Under the pieces are notes generated by a model. That model saw nothing but the letters and a program-made list of their open reading frames with translations, had not been told where the DNA came from and searched no databases. From a virus, in IMG/VR virus record IMGVR_UViG_3300042387_000871, positions 1-37,847 of that record: a stretch of 37,847 nt of DNA; one strand, 5' to 3'. The first letter of the stretch is position 1, and each line of letters begins with the position of its first letter. Positions 9,518 to 37,847 of the stretch are shown here, piece by piece. The position numbers and the translations under genes were made by a program.

Positions 9518-11992
9518 ATGCCGCTGCTTGCCGATCGCGTAAAAGAAACCACAACCACGACGGGAACCGGTCAGCTTACGCTGGCCGGCGCACCGACGGG
9601 GTTCCAATCGTTTACGACCGCGTTCGGCAACGGCGCGTCGGTGTACTATGTGATCGCTGGGGGCGCGCAGTGGGAGATCGGCATCGGGACGACCGGTGCC
9701 GGTACCCTGACGCGCGAGACGGTGCTGCAGTCGACCAACGCCGATGCGCTGGTCGATTTCGCCGCCGGCGTGAAGGACGTGTTCTGTTCGTATGTCGCCG
9801 ATCGCGCGGTCACGACCTCGGATACCGCGACGCTCACGAACAAGACGATCGACAGCTATACGAACGACGTCGGCGCGAACAGCACGCACTTCCGGATCAA
9901 GGCCGGCGCGACCCTCGGCAAGGGCGACGTGATCCGCGCGGTCGGGTTCACGCCTGGCGAGCAAGCGATCGAGGTGGTGAAGGTCGCGAGCGCGAACGAG
10001 CCGTCAATCGGTATCTGCGAACAGGCGCTCACCTCCGGCCAGTTTGGTATGGCGGTCGTGATCGGCGAGTTGTTCAACGTCAACACTAACGGGTTCACGG
10101 TAAACCAAACGCTGTACAGCAATGGGACGGGGGGGTTCACCGCGACCAAGCCCTCGAGCGGGTTGTACCAAGTGCTCGGGTGGGTCGTGCGGGCGAACGC
10201 AAACAACGGCGTGATAGCGGTCAACGTGGTCTCGCCGCTTTATGTCGAGGCCTCGACCAATACCGCAAATACGTCCGTGATACGCGACGGCAGCGGCAAC
10301 TTCGCGGCCGGCACGATCACCGGGGCGCTGACCGGGAACGCCTCGACCGCGACGACGCTGCAAACGGCGCGGACGATCAACGGCGTCTCGTTTAACGGCT
10401 CGGCGGATATCACCGTGGCGGCAGCGGCTGGGACACTCACCGGCACAACGCTGGCCTCCAACGTGACGGCGAGCAGCCTGACAAGCGTCGGCACGCTGGC
10501 GAACCTGACCGTGACCAACCCGATCACGGGCAGCGTGACGGGCAGCAGTGGTAGTACGACAGGGAACGCCGCGACGGCGACGACGTTGCAGACGGCGCGC
10601 ACAATTAACGGCGTCTCGTTCAACGGCTCGGCCAATATCACGGTACCGGCGGCCGCGGGAACCCTGACGGGTAGCACCCTGGCGAGCGGCGTCACGGCCT
10701 CGAGCCTGACCAGCGTCGGGACGATTGGCACGGGCACATGGCAGGGTAGCGCCATTGCCGACACCTACTTGGCCACGATCAGTACGGCTGGCAAAGTCTC
10801 GAACAGCGCCACGACCGCCACCAGCGCCAACACGGCGAGCGCGATTGTCGCCCGTGATAGCTCGGGCAACTTCTCGGCTGGCACGATCACGGCGGCGCTG
10901 ACGGGTAACGCCAGCACAGCGACGGCGTTGCAGACAGCTCGAGCGATCAACGGCGTGAACTTCGACGGCACGGCCGCAATTACGGTTGCGGCGGCGGCAG
11001 GTACACTGACGGGCACCACGTTAGCGGCGGGCGTGACCGCCTCTAGCCTGACCAGCGTCGGGACGCTCGCGGGTCTGACGGTGACAGCGCCGATTACGGG
11101 CAGCGTCACGGGCTCGAGCGGCAGCACGACCGGCAACGCCGCGACGGCGACCGCGTTGCAGACGGCTCGAGCGATTAACGGTGTGAACTTTGATGGTACG
11201 GCAGCGATCACGGTAACCGCTGCCGCTGGCACGCTGACGGGGGCCACGCTGTCAAGTGGCGTGACGGCGAGTAGCCTGACGAGTGTAGGGACGTTGTCGA
11301 GCTTGGGTGTCACAAACAACATCACCTCGTCAAGCGGCATCATATCAGCTGGTGCTGATTTCCGACTCTCGGGGTCGTCGTTTACCCGCGTTGCTGACGC
11401 TGATACCGGCGGAGGCTTTGGTGGTGGTTACAACTTAATGATTGACGGCGGGACCGCCAAACACGATTCAACGGGAAATATCTCCGGATACCATTACAAA
11501 ACTGGCGGAAGCATTGAGCTGTATACCGGCAGTTCGCAACCGGCAGGGACAACGGCTACGCCAAAACTAACGCTGGACGCGAACGGCAACCTGACGATGA
11601 CCGGTACCGTGTCGATGGCGGATAACGTCATTAGCCGTCCGCGCTTCACGGACTACGCCGAGACCTACACCACGCCAGCGATTAGCAGCAACACGCTGAC
11701 GCTGAACTTGGAAAACGGCAACGTGTTCCGTGTGACGCGCAATGCGAACATCTCGACGCTGACGATTAGCAATCCAGCCGCCAGCGGCAACGCCTGTAGC
11801 TTCACGCTGATCTTCGATGCGAACGGCACCAGCTACACGATCACATGGCCCGCAGCGGTGAAGTGGCCGGGTGGGACCGCTCCGACGATCACGACCACGA
11901 ACGGGCGCTCTGATATGTTCGTGTTCTACACCAACAACGCGGGTACGACATGGTACGCCATGACCGCTGCCCAAAACTTCGTGACGACCTAA
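9518..11992 (+). CDS. Tail fibre protein with tandem sequence modules
   Basis: 824 residues. The N-terminus (~1-245) is a virion-attachment type region (ADRVKETTTTTGTGQLTLAG, EQAIEVVKVASANEPSIGI). Residues ~255-590 repeat units containing LQTARTINGVSFNGSADITV and TASSLTSVGTL four times. The last ~200 residues form a different distal domain ending in TITWPAAVKWPGG and WYAMTAAQNF, typical for the end of phage side fibres. From about 11,300 onward the base composition is less GC-rich and codons less extreme, suggesting exchange of the distal receptor-binding part. The ribosome site AGAGGAG lies 9-15 bases upstream. The glycine-rich tip protein follows one base after the stop. Confidence 0.85.
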   Translation: MPLLADRVKETTTTTGTGQLTLAGAPTGFQSFTTAFGNGASVYYVIAGGAQWEIGIGTTGAGTLTRETVLQSTNADALVDFAAGVKDVFCSYVADRAVTTSDTATLTNKTIDSYTNDVGANSTHFRIKAGATLGKGDVIRAVGFTPGEQAIEVVKVASANEPSIGICEQALTSGQFGMAVVIGELFNVNTNGFTVNQTLYSNGTGGFTATKPSSGLYQVLGWVVRANANNGVIAVNVVSPLYVEASTNTANTSVIRDGSGNFAAGTITGALTGNASTATTLQTARTINGVSFNGSADITVAAAAGTLTGTTLASNVTASSLTSVGTLANLTVTNPITGSVTGSSGSTTGNAATATTLQTARTINGVSFNGSANITVPAAAGTLTGSTLASGVTASSLTSVGTIGTGTWQGSAIADTYLATISTAGKVSNSATTATSANTASAIVARDSSGNFSAGTITAALTGNASTATALQTARAINGVNFDGTAAITVAAAAGTLTGTTLAAGVTASSLTSVGTLAGLTVTAPITGSVTGSSGSTTGNAATATALQTARAINGVNFDGTAAITVTAAAGTLTGATLSSGVTASSLTSVGTLSSLGVTNNITSSSGIISAGADFRLSGSSFTRVADADTGGGFGGGYNLMIDGGTAKHDSTGNISGYHYKTGGSIELYTGSSQPAGTTATPKLTLDANGNLTMTGTVSMADNVISRPRFTDYAETYTTPAISSNTLTLNLENGNVFRVTRNANISTLTISNPAASGNACSFTLIFDANGTSYTITWPAAVKWPGGTAPTITTTNGRSDMFVFYTNNAGTTWYAMTAAQNFVTT
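10289..10726 (+). repeat. Fibre super-repeat, copy 1
   Basis: Contains two LQTAR-type units whose Leu codons lie at 10,358 and 10,586 (228 bases apart). The whole block recurs 570 bases downstream. It encodes the GNFAAGTITGALTGNAST start and two TSVGT ends. Copies have drifted mainly at third positions. Confidence 0.8.
10859..11296 (+). repeat. Fibre super-repeat, copy 2
   Basis: Second copy of the 570-base-period block, with LQTAR units at 10,928 and 11,156, again 228 bases apart. It encodes GNFSAGTITAALTGNAST. Both units here read TARAINGVNFDGTAAITV, where copy 1 has TARTINGVSFNGSA. Confidence 0.8.
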
Positions 11993-13376: not shown

Positions 13377-14465
13377 ATGCTATCAGCCTTTCCCCTCAGT
13401 ACGTTCCCGTTATCGTCCGTCGGGACGGTGGCGCTCGCGTTGTCGGCCGCGGCCGGCACGTTCTCGGCCACGGGCGGCGCGGCAAGGTTCGCGCTGACGC
13501 GGGCCTCGAGCGCGGCGACGTACACGCTGACGGGAGAGGCGGCCGGCCTGAACTACGGCCGAACGCTGACGGGCGACGTCGGAACGTTCACGCTGACGGG
13601 ATTCGGCGCGGTGGCGCGGTACAACGAACCGTCCGCGGCGGGCGCGTTCGTGCTGACCGGTCAGGATGCGACGGTGCAGGTCGGGCGCTACCTCGAGGCG
13701 GTCGCGGGCACGTTTACGCTGACCGGCAAGGCGGCGCGAAGCCAGACGGTCCGGCAAGCGTCGCTCGGGACGTTTATCCTGACGGGCGAGGCGGCGACGT
13801 TCCGCACGGGCAAGGGCATGGGGCTCGGGCACGGGACGTTCGCGCTTACCGGCCAGCCGGCTAGCCTAATCGCTGCGGTCAGTGTCGACGCGGACGCGGG
13901 CGCGTTTTCCCTGGCGGGACAGGCGGCGGCGCTTCGGCGCGGGTACATGGTCCTCGGGGCGGTCGGCACCTTTACGCTGACCGGTCAGGACGCGACCTCG
14001 CGGTATAACGGGCCGAACGCGGGCGGGTCGTTTGCGCTCACCGGTGGGGCGGCCGCGTTCCGCGTCTCGCGAAGCTCAAGCGCCGGAACGTTCACGCTGA
14101 CGGGACAGGCCGCGACCCTCAAGCGCGGGCGGCGGCTGCCGGCAGACGTGGGGACGTTTGTCCTGGCGGGACAGGCCGCGGGCCTCAGGAGGGCGCGAGT
14201 CGTGACGGGTGGCGTTGGCACGTTCGCGCTGACCGGCCAGCCGGCGACGCTGAACCTCGGCAAGCGGCTCGAGGCCGCGGTCGGGACGTTCACGCTCACC
14301 GGTCAGGCGGCAAGCGCCGGCCGGATGATGGCCGCGGGCGTCGGGATGTTTGCCCTGACCGGCCAGCCGGCGACGTTCTCGATTGTCGGCATGAGCCGGT
14401 TGCGGGTGCGGGACTTTTCGGGGCCGTACGTGGCGGTCCGCGACGACTCACAAGGGTACTGGTAG
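13377..14465 (+). CDS. Protein of about 15 tandem 20-22-residue GTFTLTGQ repeats
   Basis: 362 residues, almost wholly a repeat of the form G-T-F-T-L-T-G-Q-x-A, then about 12 variable residues often containing RG or RY. I count about 15 units between ~13,460 and 14,390, some 20 and some 22 residues long. The N-terminus (LSAFPLSTFPLSS) and the last ~30 residues (RLRVRDFSGPYVAVRDDSQG) are not repeats. The alternation of short strands and turns suggests a beta solenoid or repeated blades, probably on the virion surface. I know similar GTFTLTGQ arrays in other phages but no proven function. It closes the fibre cassette. Confidence 0.75.
   Translation: MLSAFPLSTFPLSSVGTVALALSAAAGTFSATGGAARFALTRASSAATYTLTGEAAGLNYGRTLTGDVGTFTLTGFGAVARYNEPSAAGAFVLTGQDATVQVGRYLEAVAGTFTLTGKAARSQTVRQASLGTFILTGEAATFRTGKGMGLGHGTFALTGQPASLIAAVSVDADAGAFSLAGQAAALRRGYMVLGAVGTFTLTGQDATSRYNGPNAGGSFALTGGAAAFRVSRSSSAGTFTLTGQAATLKRGRRLPADVGTFVLAGQAAGLRRARVVTGGVGTFALTGQPATLNLGKRLEAAVGTFTLTGQAASAGRMMAAGVGMFALTGQPATFSIVGMSRLRVRDFSGPYVAVRDDSQGYW
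13458..14390 (+). repeat. Degenerate 60-66-base tandem repeat array
   Basis: DNA behind the GTFTLTGQ repeats. The conserved core is a version of GGGACGTTCACGCTGACGGG, seen for example near 13,580, 13,705 and 14,087. Units differ at many positions, so the array is old or selected at protein level. Confidence 0.7.
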
Positions 14466-19658: not shown

Positions 19659-22600
19659 ATGCCCGCATCATTGCTGCAGTACCGGCTGCGTATCCGGAAC
19701 GCCTCGACCCTTGCCAATCCGGACGGGACCGACGACGCGGTGGTGATTTCCTCCGTCCCTGGGGATACGGGGCCGTATTTGGCGTCAGCGCCATCCGGCG
19801 ACGGGCAGGAGGTCGACCCGATTACGGGCGCGGTCCGGACGGGATCGTATACGGTCGAGGTGGTCGACGCGAACACGGGAACAGACGCGACGGGCACAAT
19901 TCGGTATCTGACCTCGCGGCTCGAGGACGCGACGTTTCGGCAACAGCTTATTAGTCGGCGCGCGTATGTCGAGATACGGACCGACGGCGGCGCGTGGTCA
20001 ATCCTGATCGCCGGCTATGTGCTCGGCGTCCGGCTGGTCTCGCCGATGCGGTACGCGATCGCGGTCGGCGATACGCGGCGCGTGGAACAGTCGCAGGAGA
20101 TTTTTCAGGGCGGCACCCTGGGGACGTACACGACTCGCGGCTGCATCCTCGGGGGTCCGGTGACGTCGGATTGGGGGCCGGTCAAGGCGCGAGGCGGGTG
20201 GCGGTATCGCGTCACCAAGAACGGCGACGACGTGGCGCTCGAGTTTGTGGAAGGGTACGCCTCGACGTTTAACGCACCGCTGGTGCGGGATTGGCGGAAG
20301 GTGACGCGGCCGGAGATGCTCGAGGCGATCGCGAACTATCGGACGGTGAATCCGTACGCGCTGGGCGGCGGGTCGCAGTTCGTGACGGCCTATACGACGG
20401 CCGCGTATGATTTCAGTCTCAACGATTGGGCCGTGGTCGGTGGCGTCGTGGCGTATGTCGGTACCTCGGCGACGACCGCGGCACCGGTGCGGGCGCTGGT
20501 GGTCAGCAATACCTCGGGACCGACGACGGCCGTGGTGAACCTGTACTGGCCTGGGTGCCCGCATAGCACGGGCGATCTGGTGTATCTGTCGCTGTCGACC
20601 GTCGACGTCACGGCCGTGACGCCGCTGTACCTCGACGCGCATCCGGTCGACCTGGTGACAGCGATCTGGTCGAACGCGCGGGTCCGGTACAACGCGGCCG
20701 GCGCGTGGATTCCTGCAGTCAAGGCGCTAATCGGCGATACGGTACGGCTGGCCTGTCGGTTTACGGACGCGCCAAAGATCGCGGAGTTCCTCGAGCGGTC
20801 GATCTATGGTCCGTTTGGGATCGCCTCGAGGACAACGACCGACGGGCTGCAGGAGTTGTTCCCGACGCGCATCCGGACGGATGTCGTGCCGTTGATCACG
20901 GTCGCCGTCGGGTCGCTTCGGAGCGCCGATCCGGTGGTGTTCGACCTAGACGAAGCGAGCGCGGTAAGCTCGATCGCGCTAACGCAGCAGGTGTTTAATC
21001 AGGCGATCTACGTCGAAGGCGGGTCGGCGACCAACGGGTACACGCAAACGCAGTCGCAGGGCAACCCGCTCGATGGCGTCCTGGTCTCGAGCGTGACGCA
21101 AACAGCGCAATATCTCGATCCGAACCTGACGGTATTCGCGGGACGCGAGATCAATTACACGGTGCCTGGCATGGTGCATACCGTGACCGATTGGACGCCG
21201 AACACGATGCCGCAACTCGACGCGATCGCGGTCGGGGTGTTCGACCGGTTCGGTCGGGGCGCGTCGGCGGCGGAGGTGGAGGTGCTCGCGGGCTCGAGCG
21301 CGGCCACGGCGCAGGTCGGGGACGAGGTGTACTTCGAGGGGCCGAGTTTCCCGAACAAGGGGTACCGGATCGGCGAGTCGACGGTCGGGGCGCGGATTAT
21401 GCAGGTCGTGCGGCGGACGGAAACGCCGTCCGGCCCGACGCTCAAACTGCTGGATTCAGGGCTCGCGGCGCAGCCGGCGACGTTGCCGACGCTGACGATC
21501 TCGGCGGCCGCCGGAGCGGCAACGACGACCGCGGCCTTTACGATCACGAACGCGGCGACCCTTAACGCGACCGGCCTAATTTCGGTCCGCGTGGAATGGT
21601 CGACCGGCGTGACGACGCCGACCGGTGGCGCAGACTTTGCGATCTACGCACCGGCGCAGATTCCGACCGGCGCGGTGAACTTGCCGGCGCTGACGACCTC
21701 GGGCGAACGGGTCTGGGTACGGGCGCGATCGGAACAGGCTGGCCGCCGGCCGTCGGCGTGGACGGCGTGGACGTCGGTCGTGCTGTCGGCGATTCCGACG
21801 ATCACGGGCGCGACGATCAGCAATATCCGGCAGACCGCGGCGACGGTATCGTGGACGAATACCTCGAGCACGTTGCCGGTGGTCCTGTTCGCGGCGCAGG
21901 GCAGCGGAGCGCCGGCGTCGTGGACGCCGTTTCGCGTGGCTTCGGTGCCGGCGGGCTCGACCTCGAGCGTGGTCCGGAACCTCACGGGTCCGTCGGTGGC
22001 GTGGACGATCGGCCTCGCGTACGAGAGCGCGGGCGTCCTGGGGCCGGTGACCGCGGTCACGCTGACGACCAACAGTACGAGCGATACCAGCAGCCGGCCG
22101 GCGGCGCTGGCCGTCATCCCTGGCGTCGACGATGTGACGCTTGCGCAGGGTGTGGCGTTGGCGATGTGGCCGGCGGATCAAGCGCTTGACCTAGTGGTCG
22201 AGCGGAGCACGACCAGCGGTAGCGGGTTCGCAGAGATCGCGCGGGTGGCCGGTTCGACGCCGACCTATGTCGACAGCCGGCCGCGGGACGGGGTGACGTA
22301 TTACTACCGGATTGCGCACGTCCTGGGCGGGTTCGGCCTGTCGCCGTACTCGCAGGAGGTGTCGGGGATCGCTCGAGGCGTACCGCGGGACGTGGTGCGA
22401 CCTGGCGCGGTCGGGCCGGTGGTGCAGGTCGAGACGACCGAGGTCGGCACGACGGGCACGGTGACGCTGACGATTACCGACCCGCAGGGCCGCGTCGAAC
22501 AGGTCCGGTTTCGGGAACGGACGGGCGGCGGCGCGTGGTCGGCGTGGACGGTTGATACCTCGGTGCCGTACAGCTACAGCGGCACGATCCCAAGTAGCGG

Positions 22601-24506: not shown

Positions 24507-25622
24507 ATGCGGCTGCATTGCTTAGGCATCCCGCACACGGTGACGCATCCGGATTGGTCGCACTGCGCGTTTACGCAAAAAGTGCGCCGGTTCGCGCCGA
24601 TGCTGCAGCCGTTTGGGTTCCATCTGACGCACTACGGCGTGGCCGGGTCGGTGTCGGGCGCGGATGAGGACGTGGTGTTGATGGCGCAAGACGAGCATCA
24701 GCACCTGCTCGGGCATCCGTACGCGCACGGGTCGGCGCTCTATGGGAACGACGCGCAGGACGGGTCGGACTTGTACCGGCAGTGGAATTTGTACGCGCGG
24801 GATGCGCTCAAGGACCGGGTCGCGCCGGGTGATCTGATCCTGCTGCCGTTCGGCCACGCGCACGCCGCGGCGGTCCGTGGGCTCCCGGTGCTGGCGGCTG
24901 GCGCGGGAGCGGTCGAGTCGGGGATCGGGTATTTCGATACGCTGGTGCCCTGGCGCGTGTACGAATCGTTCGCGGTCCGGCACGCGGTGATGGCGAAGGA
25001 GGGGCGGTACGGCGTGACGCTTGAGTCGTCGCGGCTCGAATGGGTGATCCCGAATTATTATGACGTGACGGAATGGCCGGCGCAGCTCGCGCTCGAGGCC
25101 GACGCGCCGGTGGTGTATCTTGGCCGCCTGACGGAAGGGAAAGGGCTCGCGATTGTGCTCGAGGTGGCGCGCGCGCGGCCGGACGTGCCGTTCGTGGTGG
25201 CCGGGCAGGGTGACATCGCGGCGTTTGGGCCGTTGCCGGCGAATGTGACGTATGCGGGGAGCCTCGGGCCGGAACGCGCGGCGTTGTTAGGTCGGGCGCG
25301 CGCGATTCTCGCGCCGAGCCGGTACATCGAGCCGTTTGGGGGCGCGGTGGTCGAGGCGGCCTTGTGTGGGACGCCGGCGATTACGTCGGACTTCGGCTGT
25401 TTTGCGGAGACGGTGCAGCACGGGATTACGGGGCTCCGGTGTCAAACGGTCCGGCAGTTTATCGCGGCCGTCGATGGGGTACTCGGACTCTCGCGCGCGC
25501 GGGTCGCGAAGCGAGCGCGGAAACTGTATGCGATGGAGAACGTGGGCCGGTTATATGCCGACGCGTTCGCGGTCGCGGGCGAACGGCTGGCCGCGGGCGG
25601 GTATCCGGCGACGGGCTGGTGA
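24507..25622 (+). CDS. Glycosyltransferase family 4-like (GT-B fold)
   Basis: 371 residues. The C-terminal half carries the family marks: VVYLGRLTEGKGLAIVLEVA near 205, FVVAGQGDI, and LAPSRYIEPFGGAVVEAALC followed by GTPAITSDFGCFAE (~270-305), where the two Glu residues of the EPFGGAVVEA segment bind the nucleotide sugar. The N-terminus is the acceptor-binding half, beginning MRLHCLGIPHTVT. No signal peptide or membrane segment is visible. It lies between the hub and lysis genes. It could glycosylate tail proteins, phage DNA, or a host surface sugar; the sequence does not decide. Overlaps the next frame as GTGA. Confidence 0.85.
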   Translation: MRLHCLGIPHTVTHPDWSHCAFTQKVRRFAPMLQPFGFHLTHYGVAGSVSGADEDVVLMAQDEHQHLLGHPYAHGSALYGNDAQDGSDLYRQWNLYARDALKDRVAPGDLILLPFGHAHAAAVRGLPVLAAGAGAVESGIGYFDTLVPWRVYESFAVRHAVMAKEGRYGVTLESSRLEWVIPNYYDVTEWPAQLALEADAPVVYLGRLTEGKGLAIVLEVARARPDVPFVVAGQGDIAAFGPLPANVTYAGSLGPERAALLGRARAILAPSRYIEPFGGAVVEAALCGTPAITSDFGCFAETVQHGITGLRCQTVRQFIAAVDGVLGLSRARVAKRARKLYAMENVGRLYADAFAVAGERLAAGGYPATGW

Positions 25623-28152: not shown

Positions 28153-28512
28153 ATGGGCACCTTTTACGATCCGGCTGACGACGCGCGGCGTGCAATGTGG
28201 GCGAAGATTCACGTGTACGGCGAGCCGCGGCCGGCAGCAACGCCGGATGACGAGGACGACGACCGGACCACGGCCGAGCGCATTTTGGCCGCGTTCCGTG
28301 ATGCGGTGCGGGACGAAAAGGGGCGGTTGCTGAGTGAGCGGATGGACGCGGACGGGGGCGTCTACGGGTGTATTGAGCGAGGCGGCATCCCGGTAGAAAA
28401 GTGGGTGTTTCGCGATCGGTCGACGATAATCTATGATCGGCACAACGAGTTAACGCTTGGGTACGCGGCGTGCTTTTGTCTACTCGAGGACGGCTGCGGG
28501 TGCGATCGGTGA
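28153..28512 (+). CDS. Hypothetical early protein, 119 residues
   Basis: ATG 28153 closely follows the previous stop. An acidic stretch (TPDDEDDDRTT) precedes a helix (AERILAAFRDAVRDEKGRLL) and a small beta part ending in cysteines (ACFCLLEDGCGCDR). The four cysteines at the end could bind a metal. The stop overlaps the methyltransferase start (TGATG), so both are probably co-translated. Confidence 0.6.
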   Translation: MGTFYDPADDARRAMWAKIHVYGEPRPAATPDDEDDDRTTAERILAAFRDAVRDEKGRLLSERMDADGGVYGCIERGGIPVEKWVFRDRSTIIYDRHNELTLGYAACFCLLEDGCGCDR

Positions 28513-29594
28513 TGCGGTATGTCGAGCTGTTTGCCGGGGCCGGCGGCATGTCGCGCGGCCTCGAGGCTGCCGGACTGACGCCGATGGCGCATTGCGAGAT
28601 CGCGGAGCACGCGCGCGCGGTCTTGCGCTATCGGTGGCCGACGACGCCGCTATATGGCGATGTCCTGGCATTGGATGGACGATCGTTTCAGGGCGCGGCG
28701 ATCGTGTCGGGCGGGTCGCCGTGTCAGGAGTTGAGCGTCGCCGGGAAACGGGCCGGGCTCGAGGGCGTGCGGTCCGGGTTGTTTTACGAACAGGTCCGCA
28801 TATGGCGGGAAAGCAATGCCACGTACTGCGTATGGGAGAACGTTTATGGCGCACTCAGCAGCAACCGCGGCGCGGATTTCGCCGCGGTCCTATCGGCCCT
28901 CGTGGGAAGTCCCGTCGTTGTTCCCGGAGACGGATGGGAACGCGCAGGTGTGGCAGCAGGATCGACCGGAGTGGCCGCGTGGCGCGTGTTGGATTTGCAA
29001 TACTTCGGCTGGCCGCAGCGACGCCGGCGCGTGTTTGTCGTCGCTGCTCGAGCCGGCGGCGTCGATCCCGCGGAAGTATTGGATGTCGGACCGACAGGTT
29101 GCGAACATACAGCGGCGCGTCCGGCGCCCGCTGGTGATTGGTGGGATGGTTCGGGAATAGTCCCGGCGCTCGATCATTCGGGCATCGTGAAACAGCAGAC
29201 GATGCCGGAGAAACAGCGACTCTGGGCCGTGCGTGCCGCAACCTGGCGCGAGGTGGTCTTTGCTCCGGGCGATGAAGAACCGTGCGAGCGGTGCGGTGCG
29301 GAGTATGCCGAGTGCTGTTGCCCGGGACCGACGCAAGAGTTCGAGTATCGGACAAATGCCGATGGCGACCTCGAGGCGTTTGTGCCGTGGTTGCGCCGGC
29401 TGACGCCACGCGAGTGCGAACGCTTAATGTCCTGGCCGGATGAGTGGACGCGATTCGGGCTGAAAGAAAACGGGACGCTCTTTGATGTGCCGGACACCGC
29501 GCGGTTTCGGCTTTGTGGGAACGGGGTTGCGTCCGCGTGTGTCGAGTGGTTCGCGAGACGGCTCGTCGCGCTCGAGACGGGCGGGTCGGTATGA
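28512..29594 (+). CDS. C5-cytosine DNA methyltransferase
   Basis: 360 residues, start ATG 28512. Motif I is LFAGAGG (6-12), catalytic motif IV GGSPCQELS with Cys71, motif VI ENV (109-111), motif VIII QRRRRVF (169-175), and the last motifs RRLTPRECERLMSWPDEWT and RLCGNGVASACVEWF. All catalytic parts are present. The target-recognition region holds CERC, six residues, then CCC (258-270), a possible zinc site that is not usual in the family. No restriction gene is adjacent. It may protect phage DNA against host enzymes or supply 5-methylcytosine for further modification by the TAGT-type enzyme at 35,826. Target sequence unknown. Confidence 0.92.
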   Translation: MRYVELFAGAGGMSRGLEAAGLTPMAHCEIAEHARAVLRYRWPTTPLYGDVLALDGRSFQGAAIVSGGSPCQELSVAGKRAGLEGVRSGLFYEQVRIWRESNATYCVWENVYGALSSNRGADFAAVLSALVGSPVVVPGDGWERAGVAAGSTGVAAWRVLDLQYFGWPQRRRRVFVVAARAGGVDPAEVLDVGPTGCEHTAARPAPAGDWWDGSGIVPALDHSGIVKQQTMPEKQRLWAVRAATWREVVFAPGDEEPCERCGAEYAECCCPGPTQEFEYRTNADGDLEAFVPWLRRLTPRECERLMSWPDEWTRFGLKENGTLFDVPDTARFRLCGNGVASACVEWFARRLVALETGGSV

Positions 29595-34889: not shown

Positions 34890-35090
34890 ATGCCGATGCC
34901 GACGCCGGCTCCGGGGGAGAAGAAGGACGCGTTTCTGGCGGCCTGTATGGATGATACGGTGATGCTGGACGAGTACCCGGACGCGGCGCAGCGGTATGCG
35001 GTCTGCCTGGCGCAATGGGATAAGGACCGCAGCGCAAAGGTCGCCCGGGACACGGGGAGCGGATGGCCGACGAATCCGTTTACGGCATGA
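34890..35090 (+). CDS. Small protein with EYPDxxQRxAVC motif
   Basis: 66 residues. KKDAFLAACMDDTVMLDEYP continuing to QRYAVCLAQW is a short domain I know from many phage head and packaging-region proteins, either alone or fused to larger ones, with no settled function; two cysteines and a Trp are its constant points. Its stop overlaps the internal ATG 35087 of the ParB gene. Confidence 0.65.
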   Translation: MPMPTPAPGEKKDAFLAACMDDTVMLDEYPDAAQRYAVCLAQWDKDRSAKVARDTGSGWPTNPFTA

Positions 35091-35833
35091 GTGCCGCGCC
35101 GTGGGTGCGGATGCCGCTCGGGAAGGTGAAGTCGAACCCGAGCAATCCGCGGATTATCAAGGACGACAAGTTCCGGAAGTTGGTGCAGTCGATTCGGGAC
35201 TTTCCCGAGATGCTTGAGCTCCGGCCAATCGTCGTGGATGCCGAGGGCGTGGTGCTCGGGGGCAATATGCGCCTACGGGCGGCGAAGGAAGCCGGCCTAA
35301 CGGACGTGCCGGTGATCCGGGCCGAGCACCTCACCGCGGAGCAACAGCGGGAGTTCGTGGTCAAGGACAACGTGGGGTTCGGCGAGTGGGATTGGGACGC
35401 GTTGGCGAACGCGTGGGACCGCGACGAGTTGGTGGCGTGGGGTATGGACGTGCCGACCGAGGCCGAGGACAAGGAAGCGTATACGGCGAAAATTGTGGCG
35501 CCGGACTACGAGATGACGGGCGAGTGCCCACCGGTCGAATCGTTGATCGATGTCGGCAAGTACGAGGCCCTGGTGACGGCGATCAATAAGGAAAAAGCGT
35601 TACCGGCTAACGTGAAAGCGTTTCTTGCGTACGCGGCGACGCGGCATGTCGTGTTCGACTACCAAGCGATCGCGGAATACTACGCGCACGCCCCGGCCTA
35701 TGTGCAACGGCTGATGGAGGCGTCGGCCCTTGTGATTGTCGATTACGAGGACGCGATCAAGAACGGCTTCGTCGTGTTGTCGGACAGTATCCGTGACGCG
35801 ATGCTCGACGATTACGAAACGGTTGATGTGTAA
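35063..35833 (+). CDS. ParB-like nuclease-fold protein linked to TAGT
   Basis: 256 residues from ATG 35063 (GGAG close by); ATG 35087, overlapping the previous stop, is an alternative. Residues ~15-110 form a ParB/sulfiredoxin domain: KVKSNPSNPRIIKDDKFRKL, and VVLGGNMRLRAAKEAG with the conserved GNxR-type motif. The C-terminal half (YEALVTAINKEKALPANVKA, AIAEYYAHAPAYVQRLMEAS) resembles the region that, from memory, follows ParB domains beside TET-associated glycosyltransferases. It overlaps the TAGT gene by eight bases. Suggested role: recognising or nicking DNA for modification or packaging. No ParA gene is present, so plasmid-type partition is unlikely. Confidence 0.8.
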   Translation: MADESVYGMSAAPWVRMPLGKVKSNPSNPRIIKDDKFRKLVQSIRDFPEMLELRPIVVDAEGVVLGGNMRLRAAKEAGLTDVPVIRAEHLTAEQQREFVVKDNVGFGEWDWDALANAWDRDELVAWGMDVPTEAEDKEAYTAKIVAPDYEMTGECPPVESLIDVGKYEALVTAINKEKALPANVKAFLAYAATRHVVFDYQAIAEYYAHAPAYVQRLMEASALVIVDYEDAIKNGFVVLSDSIRDAMLDDYETVDV

Positions 35834-36680
35834 GGACTTCGCGGCGTTTGTGCTGTCGAACCGTCGACCGGATCGCGTGTATACCGTGGCCTCGTTGCGG
35901 AAGGCCGGGTATACGGGGCCGGTCTACATCGTGCTCGACAACGAAGATCCGACGATCGAGGAATATCGCGCGCGGTACGGCGAGCAGGTCCTGGTATTCG
36001 ATAAGGAGGCGGTCGGGCGCACGTTCGACCTGGCGGATACGTTTTTTGCGAAAAAGGGGGTCGTCGTGTTTGCGCGCAATGCGGTGGCGGCGCTGGCCGA
36101 ACAGCAGGGCGTTGCGCGATGGATTCAGCTTGATGACGATTATACGGATTTCGTGTACAAGTTTGACGGCGACGGGCAGTATCGGGAGCGGAAAATTCGG
36201 TCCCTGGACCGGGTGTTTGCGGCGTTAGTGCAGTTTCAGCAAAGCACGCCGGCCGTGACCATCTGCATGGCGCAGAATGGCGATTTTTTAGGAGGAGCGA
36301 AATCGCGATACGGGCAAGCGGTGCTGTTGATGCGGAAAGCGATGAATACGTTCGTCTGCTCAAGGGACAAGCCGCTGCAGTTTGTCGGCCGGATAAACGA
36401 GGACGTCAATACGTATGTCACGGCTGGGATGCGCGGCGCGTTGCTATGTAGCATCAACACGGTGGCGATCATCCAAAAGCAAACGCAGAGCAATAAGGGC
36501 GGGATGACGGAAACGTACCTCGCGGCCGGGACGTACCTCAAGTCGTTTTACACGGTGATGATGGCGCCGTCCTGCGTAAAAATCGGCATGATGGGGCAAA
36601 ACCATCGTCGGATTCATCATCGGATTGCCTGGCGATATGCGGTTCCGAAGATCATCGACCAACGGCATCGGAAGCCGTAA
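35826..36680 (+). CDS. TET-associated glycosyltransferase (TAGT family)
   Basis: 284 residues. GT-A type: WIQLDDDYTDF with the Asp103-105 metal site, AMAQ-like CMAQNGDFLGG, VGRINEDVNTY (187-197) and QKQTQSNKGGMTETYLAAGT (217-236), then MMGQNHRRIHHRIAW with conserved histidines. This set matches the TAGT family as I remember it, predicted to add sugars to hydroxymethylated pyrimidines in phage DNA made by TET/JBP dioxygenases. No such dioxygenase is visible in this genome. Start ATG 35826 overlaps the ParB-like gene; codon use is clearly milder (more A and T) than average here, so recent transfer is possible. It lies directly before the packaging genes. Confidence 0.88.
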   Translation: MCKDFAAFVLSNRRPDRVYTVASLRKAGYTGPVYIVLDNEDPTIEEYRARYGEQVLVFDKEAVGRTFDLADTFFAKKGVVVFARNAVAALAEQQGVARWIQLDDDYTDFVYKFDGDGQYRERKIRSLDRVFAALVQFQQSTPAVTICMAQNGDFLGGAKSRYGQAVLLMRKAMNTFVCSRDKPLQFVGRINEDVNTYVTAGMRGALLCSINTVAIIQKQTQSNKGGMTETYLAAGTYLKSFYTVMMAPSCVKIGMMGQNHRRIHHRIAWRYAVPKIIDQRHRKP

Positions 36681-36708
36681 GGCCTCCGGCATAAACAATG
36701 GGGGAACA

Positions 36709-37011
36709 GTGACAACAAAGAACCTCAAGCCGTTTCCGAAGGGCGTCAGCGGGAACCCGAAGGGGCGGCCAAAGCTGCCCGACATCCGCGAGGCTTTGGC
36801 GAAGGTGCTGGCCGACGAAAAAGACGGCATCACGGCGCTCGAGGCGACCCTCGCGGCGCTGCGGGCGAAGGCAGTCCGGGGCGACGTTCGGGCGGCGGAG
36901 GTGCTGCTCGATCGGGCGTTCGGAAAGGCGGCGCAAACAATGGACGTGACCTCGGCCGGCGAGAAGATCGTGACGCCGCCGATTGTCTGGTCGGATGCGG
37001 TGGGGTCGTGA
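36709..37011 (+). CDS. DUF5681-type protein, probable small terminase
   Basis: 100 residues from GTG 36709 with GGGGGA four bases upstream. It begins TKNLKPFPKGVSGNPKGRPK, the DUF5681 signature, then helices (IREALAKVLADEKDGITALE, AVRGDVRAAEVLLDRAFGKA). Proteins with this signature commonly lie just before large terminase genes, and a basic N-terminus with helical core would suit DNA recognition at packaging start. The small-terminase role is inference from position. It overlaps the next gene as GTGA. Confidence 0.7.
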   Translation: MTTKNLKPFPKGVSGNPKGRPKLPDIREALAKVLADEKDGITALEATLAALRAKAVRGDVRAAEVLLDRAFGKAAQTMDVTSAGEKIVTPPIVWSDAVGS

Positions 37012-37613
37012 AGTATTACGAAGGATGGTGGGAGGCGAACCACGTGACGCGCGGCAACGATCTCGCGCGGTGGCTCTGGGAGTCGGATCGCTCGAGCCGT
37101 GAGGCGGTCGGGGCGATCGCGGACCGGTTGTGTCGGGACCGGCTCACCGTGCTCGAGTGCGGTCCTGGCGTCTATGTGGATGCCGAGATGATTTGGCAGG
37201 ACCGGCCAGAAGTCGCGTACGCGGCGATTGATGTGACGCCGGCGATCGTGGCCGCGGGGACGGCGAAAGGGCTCGCGGTGCAGCTCGGGTCGGTTGAGGC
37301 CATTCCGTTGCCGGATCGCTCGGTCGACCTCGTGTACTGCCGGCACGTACTGGAGCATCTGCCGAGCTATCGTCAGGCGCTGACGGAGATGATGCGCGTC
37401 GCCTCGAGCGTGGCCGTGGCGGTGCTGTGGCGGCTCGATGTCGAGGCCGAGGCCGACGTCATCCTGTGGAATACGGTCGAGGACGTGCCCGACACCTTCC
37501 ATAATATGTACGCGCAACGGGCGATCTCGGCGTGGTTGGACGGGCTCGGCGTGCCGTATACCTGGGAGCGGACGCGGCAGGATTGGGTGTTGACGATGGA
37601 CGTGACGCGATGA
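37008..37613 (+). CDS. SAM-dependent methyltransferase (type 11-like)
   Basis: 201 residues from GTG 37008, overlapping both neighbours (GTGA and ATGA). Motif I is LECGPG (49-54), motif II ends in Asp75 (AAIDV), and the class I end motif is LPDRSVDLVYCRHVLEHLPS (101-120). It lacks DNA-methylase NPPY or PCQ motifs, so the substrate is more likely a small molecule, sugar or protein. Placement between the two terminase genes, with coupled translation, is unusual and may link it to DNA modification or packaging. Confidence 0.85.
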   Translation: MKYYEGWWEANHVTRGNDLARWLWESDRSSREAVGAIADRLCRDRLTVLECGPGVYVDAEMIWQDRPEVAYAAIDVTPAIVAAGTAKGLAVQLGSVEAIPLPDRSVDLVYCRHVLEHLPSYRQALTEMMRVASSVAVAVLWRLDVEAEADVILWNTVEDVPDTFHNMYAQRAISAWLDGLGVPYTWERTRQDWVLTMDVTR

Positions 37614-37847
37614 CGGGGGCGGGCTCGGCGACGGTCGAGCCGCTCGTGTTGCTCGCGCCGTACCGGGCCCTATTTCATCCCAACCCGTCCTGGCGTTACG
37701 CGTTTCTGACGGGCGGCCGCGGGTCGGGGAAATCGTTCCATCTGTCGGTGTTCCTGCTGAACCTGACGTACGAGACGGGGCACGTCATCCTGTTTACCCG
37801 GTACACGATGGAGTCGGCCGGCGCGTCGATTATCCCGGAGTTCGTGG
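37610..37847 (+). CDS. terL: Terminase large subunit, N-terminal part (continues at window base 180)
   Basis: ATG 37610 overlaps the methyltransferase stop as ATGA. It gives MTGAGSATVEPLVLLAPYRA at the start and Walker A GGRGSGKS at residues 35-42. The frame runs off the window; through the terminal overlap it continues into the left-edge fragment (2-1,195). The full protein is about 417 residues. The only differences from the left copy are two silent arginine codons. Confidence 0.95.
   Translation, partial: MTGAGSATVEPLVLLAPYRALFHPNPSWRYAFLTGGRGSGKSFHLSVFLLNLTYETGHVILFTRYTMESAGASIIPEFV
37669..37847. repeat. Right copy of the 179-base terminal overlap
   Basis: Counterpart of bases 1-179, with T at 37,696 and C at 37,720. 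The last 127 bases are identical to 53-179. It shows that the sequence is circular or circularly permuted. Confidence 0.93.

Follow-up and report, generated by a model that had tools for sequence, protein, structure and literature searches.

A glycosyltransferase and its conserved adaptor as a probable TET-independent DNA glycosylation module in phages

How could a phage place sugar on its DNA when it encodes a glycosyltransferase (GT) and no detectable enzyme that prepares the base beforehand? Glycosylated DNA is a main route by which phages get past restriction and CRISPR, and the DNA glycosylation routes known to us start from a hydroxylated or hydroxymethylated base. The question is raised by IMG/VR virus record IMGVR_UViG_3300042387_000871, analysed here over its whole stretch of 37,847 nucleotides (hereafter, the window). 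An initial annotation of this DNA had described a TAGT-type GT, a ParB-like partner gene and a C5 methyltransferase, with no TET/JBP dioxygenase. The analysis reported here indicates that the GT and its partner probably put sugar on phage DNA without a TET oxidase.

The window carries a 179-bp direct end repeat, in which positions 1-179 match positions 37669-37847 at 99% identity (two mismatches), located inside the terminase large subunit gene (terL). The N-terminal end of this gene lies at 37610..37847 on the + strand and continues at 1-1195 through the repeat (PF04466 on 2-1195). A second contig (L002), 99.6-99.9% identical to the window, crosses the end junction with a spacing of 468 bp, exactly as expected. 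The window is therefore a complete circular genome of approximately 37,668 bp, and the absence of a dioxygenase gene does not stem from missing sequence. IMG/VR lists this circular genome as 'linear'.

The partner protein (35063..35833, + strand; 256 aa; AlphaFold pLDDT 86) has an N-terminal ParB domain (PF02195, E value 2e-6) and a C-terminal GT-partner domain. Its stop overlaps the start of the GT gene (35826..36680, + strand) by 8 nt, ATGTGTAA, in agreement with the overlapping ParB-like partner described initially. The pair is followed by a DUF5681 protein (36625..37011, + strand; PF18932, E value 2e-13) that is terminase-small-subunit-like by position, and then by terL. Between these two lies a Methyltransf_11-type SAM methyltransferase gene (37008-37613), which is common only to the close relative L006 among the first 86 loci.

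The GT is a genuine and conserved enzyme. Its assignment as TAGT-type was upheld by a Pfam profile search, in which the product of 35,826-36,680 fell inside the family with 123 bits against PF20691 (cut-off 27.5; E value 2e-35), and the motifs named for it are present: DDD at residues 103-105, RINEDVNTY and QKQTQSNKGGMT. In an alignment of 79 GT relatives, D104, D105 and G226 occur in 79/79, D103 and D193 in 78/79 and E192 in 76/79, while R84 is nearly invariant (76-78). On this conservation, D103-D105 (36132..36140, + strand) is assigned as the metal/nucleotide-sugar motif and E192-D193 (36399..36404, + strand) as a candidate catalytic-base motif. The AlphaFold model (pLDDT 92.9, pTM 0.91) has a GT-A fold, with a best Foldseek E value of 5e-5 and a VIA Z score of 14.4 to GnT-I (1fo8; rmsd 3.5, 196 residues); polypeptide GalNAc-transferases are among its closest fold matches. 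No solved structure was found among its sequence relatives.

Both the GT family and solitary TAGTs are already known. The label TAGT is a loose one: the T6 enzyme (37 bits) and the c5-type ParB-linked enzyme (184 bits) both score within PF20691, and 288 of 753 phage genomes are reported to carry a TAGT without an alpha-GT or beta-GT (PMC13216743). The premise that a TAGT needs a TET, from which the initial annotation started, is thus wrong for the family as a whole.

What accompanies the GT instead is its partner. Immediately upstream of the GT, 120 of the first 130 loci have a ParB-type gene, and the C-terminal domain of the partner (hereafter, the C-domain) is missing in only three of the first GT loci, two of which are cut by a contig end. 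A search with the C-domain alone returned loci with the GT downstream in 75/75 testable cases, and in a larger set the GT adjoins 513 of the 519 C-domain ORFs with room for it, out of 526 such ORFs; these loci were gathered by similarity, in partly overlapping sets that differ in flank length. By mirror-tree analysis, divergence of the C-domain follows that of the GT (partial Spearman 0.43 given ParB), whereas the ParB domain shows no such correlation (0.05 given the C-domain). These computations show that the pairing is obligate and that the two have co-evolved; the GT's real partner is an undescribed C-domain of about 105 aa. The ParB domain, which can be absent and shows no co-evolution with the GT, was rejected as the essential partner. 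One exception to the pairing is a GT 62% identical to that of the window (L004:9947-10870), with no C-domain detectable in its record. An HTH-like ORF occupies the partner's position there.

The ParB domain of the window protein (residues 15-112; 35105..35398, + strand) has the ParB/Srx fold, with a VIA Z score of 13.6 to ParB-CDP (7bnk; rmsd 1.5 over 90 residues) and the P-motif GGNMR. The P-motif Arg is kept in 58 of 65 partner proteins and lost in the other 7. By analogy with ParB, the domain may act as a DNA clamp in this GT-partner subfamily. It is of a type common to phage DNA-methyltransferase fusions (phrog_498, E value 2e-25). Compared with the ParB of ParABS partition systems, the window protein shares ParB_N and differs in its C-terminal domain; no ParB HTH domain was found in the protein and no ParA among the scanned window proteins. 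No clear block resembling a conserved upstream parS site appeared in the alignment section examined for the enterobacterial copies.

When 65 partners were aligned, the ParB domain was variable and the C-terminal 105 or so residues far more conserved. In the window the C-domain spans residues 137-240 (35471..35782, + strand), as delimited by conservation, GT adjacency and co-evolution. Its consensus reads Y[TS]xK..PxYE...FLxxAAxRHxVFxYxxIAxYYA...QxLMExSALVIIDF...G, with Y, P, Y, F, R, A, Y, D and G invariant. A profile search of the partner proteins gave no Pfam family over the C-domain, and a structure search with the partner-protein model gave no PDB match covering it. The conserved segments 137-156 and 221-240 are of lower AlphaFold confidence.

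About 226 of the 526 C-domain ORFs lack a ParB domain, and in these stand-alone proteins the C-domain is preceded by a short N-terminal extension. A strict Q..[LMI]F or hexapeptide motif was found in this extension in 51 of 106 non-redundant stand-alone proteins (shuffled control: mean 1.9, maximum 8 in 2000), e.g. MKQTNLFG, MKQINLFG, KQSTLDIF and NQIKMNLF, and a DnaN-like gene lies within 3 kb in 39/119 stand-alone loci versus 0/178 ParB-fused loci; the sampling behind both counts was seeded from four stand-alone proteins, one of them with DnaN adjoining the GT. For comparison, 6 of the 676 other ORFs from the same loci contained the motif, and none of 181 non-redundant ParB-fused partners, the form present in the window, had it before the C-domain. 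The consensus for binding the sliding clamp is QxxLF (PMC12309361, PMC4549789), and the motif thus suggests that the stand-alone adaptor binds the clamp. The remaining 55/106 proteins have no strict motif. A DnaN of their own accompanies 26/43 stand-alones without the canonical motif as against 5/47 with it (p 6e-7), as if motif and clamp had changed together. Among the DnaN-like homologues, that of L276 is above the Pfam cut-off for PF00712 and that of L096 is a weak match to a solved beta clamp. The cultured Vibrio phage pv27 carries the stand-alone form near a helicase, with an extension that has no motif.

The two forms also differ in genomic context. A terminase gene lies within 3 kb in 126/178 ParB-fused loci versus 13/119 stand-alone loci, a contrast inflated by detection with terminase sequences taken mostly from ParB-fused loci. 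As in the window, the ParB-fused pair sits before the terminase genes in the relatives: in the E. coli prophage the order is Q and the lysis genes, then the pair, then the terminase, and in Lactobacillus phage c5 the pair is first after cos. The GT family was found in 36 INPHARED phages, at least 515 stretches of IMG/VR, 44 genomes that span several bacterial phyla and the archaeal virus HHTV-2, and the full-length pair is present in 885 of 5,426 complete E. coli genomes. Rac-like prophages hold an intact homologous ParB-GT pair, ynaK-ydaY, of which K-12-type Rac keeps only decayed remnants (L208). In E. coli LR-71-1 (L207:6001-7717), ynaK is annotated as an incomplete pseudogene, yet its ORF is intact. 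The literature on the function of ynaK and ydaY yielded incidental mentions only.

The reading that we favour, and hold to be somewhat better than an even bet, is a two-component, TET-independent DNA glycosylation module composed of a PF20691 GT and a DNA-tethering adaptor, linked either to packaging or to replication. The GT would transfer a sugar from a nucleotide sugar, while the all-helical C-domain of about 105 aa, its obligate partner, would serve as the adaptor that tethers it to DNA. The window phage has this adaptor fused to a domain of ParB fold, which may act as an NTP-binding DNA clamp. The ParB-form pair lies just before the terminase, which suggests that progeny DNA is most likely modified late, around packaging. 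In other phages the adaptor appears to carry a peptide that binds the sliding clamp, and a phage DnaN gene is often close by; the GT of this stand-alone form may act behind the replication fork, much as T4 alpha-GT binds the clamp gp45. We infer the physical complex of GT and adaptor, the clamp binding, the use of DNA as acceptor and the late timing.

The DNA model does not account for the acceptor, since these phages are not known to contain any hydroxylated base. The main rival, given GREB1, is a protein substrate: the GT would glycosylate a protein while held at DNA, such as the adaptor, the terminase or a packaged or clamp protein, and would affect packaging or replication rather than base chemistry. 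Human GREB1 has been reported to O-GlcNAcylate proteins (PMC12645433), some E. coli GT copies are annotated 'GREB1-related', and the adaptor segments 137-156 and 221-240 are conserved yet modelled at lower confidence, a pattern that an interface or an acceptor peptide might show. The lack of a known source of a hydroxyl-bearing base and the resemblance to polypeptide GalNAc-transferases are in keeping with the same idea, but GT-A fold matches say nothing about the substrate. DNA is the better fit to an adaptor that is swapped between two DNA tethers, i.e. ParB and the clamp-binding motif, and to a ParB type that is common to DNA methyltransferases. We regard the protein substrate as unlikely, at about one chance in five.

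A conventional TET-type pathway, in which an unrecognised phage oxidase or one from the host converts 5mC to 5hmC before the TAGT adds sugar, draws on the Pfam name and on the complete C5 methyltransferase that had been noted in the same genome and is indeed encoded there (28470-29594; PF00145, E value 6e-37). The reported lack of a dioxygenase was likewise confirmed: no 2OG-Fe(II) family matched any of the 40 predicted + strand proteins scanned at E<0.1, and PF12851 gave no match in the six frames of the window at E<=10. A scan of the window for HxD...H...R found the pattern only in proteins known to be something other than dioxygenases, in sequence preceding a start and in one 204-aa familyless protein. 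PF12851 was found in 0/49 long-flank relatives, 0/46 stand-alone-type records and 0/44 GT-carrying bacterial genomes, although the profile was without a positive control here, having failed to match a TET both in the controls and across 396 actinobacterial genomes, and phage TETs may escape it. The absence of TET is for this reason weaker evidence than that of a hydroxymethylase: a thymidylate-synthase/dCMP-hydroxymethylase-type gene (PF00303) was found in 0/49 long-flank relatives and 0/46 stand-alone-type records while the T6 positive control matched, and PF00303 had no match among the scanned window proteins. A thymidylate-synthase homologue does occur in one Vibrio phage of 191 kb.

A C5 methyltransferase occurs in just one of the 49 long-flank relatives, so its presence in the window is incidental, and it was rejected as a partner of the GT. 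With these counts (PF12851 0/49, PF00303-type 0/49, C5 methyltransferase 1/49), the suggestion of a reduced TET pathway found no support. The pair is moreover frequent among E. coli prophages, whose host is not known to us to make 5hmC. We consider the TET-type pathway improbable. Of the three options offered in the initial annotation, another substrate for the TAGT survives as part of our best reading, while the 2OG-Fe(II) and PF12851 searches spoke against an oxidase of either origin, phage or host. Its broader proposal of a new form of phage DNA hypermodification stays the best reading.

That the ParB protein serves in partition or as a nuclease, accompanied by a GT that is a bystander or has lost its activity, is very improbable: the protein has a ParB_N domain, and nicking and NTPase activity have been reported for ParB-like phage domains (PMC5512222), but the GT is fixed beside the C-domain across several phyla and an archaeal virus with its catalytic residues kept in 76-79 of 79 relatives, and it is the ParB domain, not the GT, that is dispensable. 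Least probable of all, and rejected, is a T6-like second-sugar transferase acting on already glycosylated hydroxymethylcytosine; T6 beta-glucosyl-HMC-alpha-glucosyltransferase belongs to PF20691 and databases name window-type GTs after it, but identity to it is 17% with no significant profile match (hhalign E value 0.54), the dCMP hydroxymethylase gene that adjoins the T6 gene is absent in 49/49 relatives, and the best C-domain match in T6 (E value 0.002) is not convincing. The T6 enzyme uses hmC made by this dCMP hydroxymethylase.

If the module acts on DNA as we favour, a further and more doubtful step, to which we give somewhat less than one chance in three, is that the pair alone glycosylates an unmodified DNA base, or another DNA atom, with no prior hydroxylation. 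Were this true, it would constitute a class of DNA modification common in phages, working either at the replication clamp or, by way of the ParB clamp, when DNA is packaged; some one in six complete E. coli genomes would carry it in a dormant state. A conserved GT without a detectable hydroxymethylating enzyme, present across several phyla and in an archaeal virus, means either that the acceptor chemistry is new or that the family has been wrongly labelled. With tethers that can be exchanged, a ParB fold or a clamp-binding peptide, the adaptor lends itself to direct tests of DNA targeting; the E. coli copies offer a laboratory model.

Several known systems resemble parts of the module. The window GT shares its Pfam family, GT-A fold and DDD and ED motifs with the TET-associated, T6 and base-J/GREB1-type members of PF20691; it differs in forming a distinct clade, in its obligate C-domain partner and in having no detected link to TET or hydroxymethylase. 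T4 alpha-GT, which binds the sliding clamp gp45 (PMC13216743), is a DNA GT at the clamp, as the replication-linked form appears to be through a separate adaptor, but it is a GT-B enzyme with its own clamp contact and a substrate, hmC, made by gp42. In the phage ParB-DNA methyltransferase fusions (phrog_498, PF02195+PF01555), a homologous ParB domain sits on the DNA-modifying enzyme itself (PMC12704722), whereas the window phage has it joined to an adaptor that serves a separate GT. Another known relative is the homologous ynaK-ydaY pair of Rac-like prophages. In the literature searched we found neither the C-domain nor the tether swap nor the two contexts described, and the portions of the 2025 survey of ParB folds available to us mention no glycosyltransferase partner (PMC12704722).

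The genes that directly follow the GT fit varied sugars and point to a modification pathway. A UDP-galactopyranose mutase is found there in three loci (L127:8828-9976, E value 1e-72; L467; L479), suggesting galactofuranose as the sugar in these phages. Radical SAM/SPASM genes directly follow the GT in 13/91 loci and were found in some 35 loci, many of them from Clostridia (overlapping or following it in, e.g., L104, L105, L112, L115, L116, L119, L095, L100 and L336), and possibly provide a base- or sugar-modifying step. Epimerases, cytidylyltransferase-like genes and N6/N4 methyltransferase genes also occur in this position. In seven loci (L052, L098, L099, L105, L112, L115 and L130) two or three tandem TAGT copies follow one partner, suggesting added disaccharides or two specificities. 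A gene with an S-adenosylmethionine-synthetase-like N-terminal domain (L239:3840-4637) lies directly after one stand-alone-type GT.

Elsewhere in the window, a GT4-family glycosyltransferase gene (24507-25622; phrog_3408, moron class) is located past the tail genes, where it adjoins an M15 peptidase, and showed no link with the GT-partner pair in relatives. ARAGORN called a tRNA with an odd 4-base anticodon at 22187-22274, within a 1607-aa gene, which is probably spurious. Internal repeats of up to 300 nt, including a 66-nt period, are present at 10295-11293 and 13511-14375 in tail/fibre-like genes.
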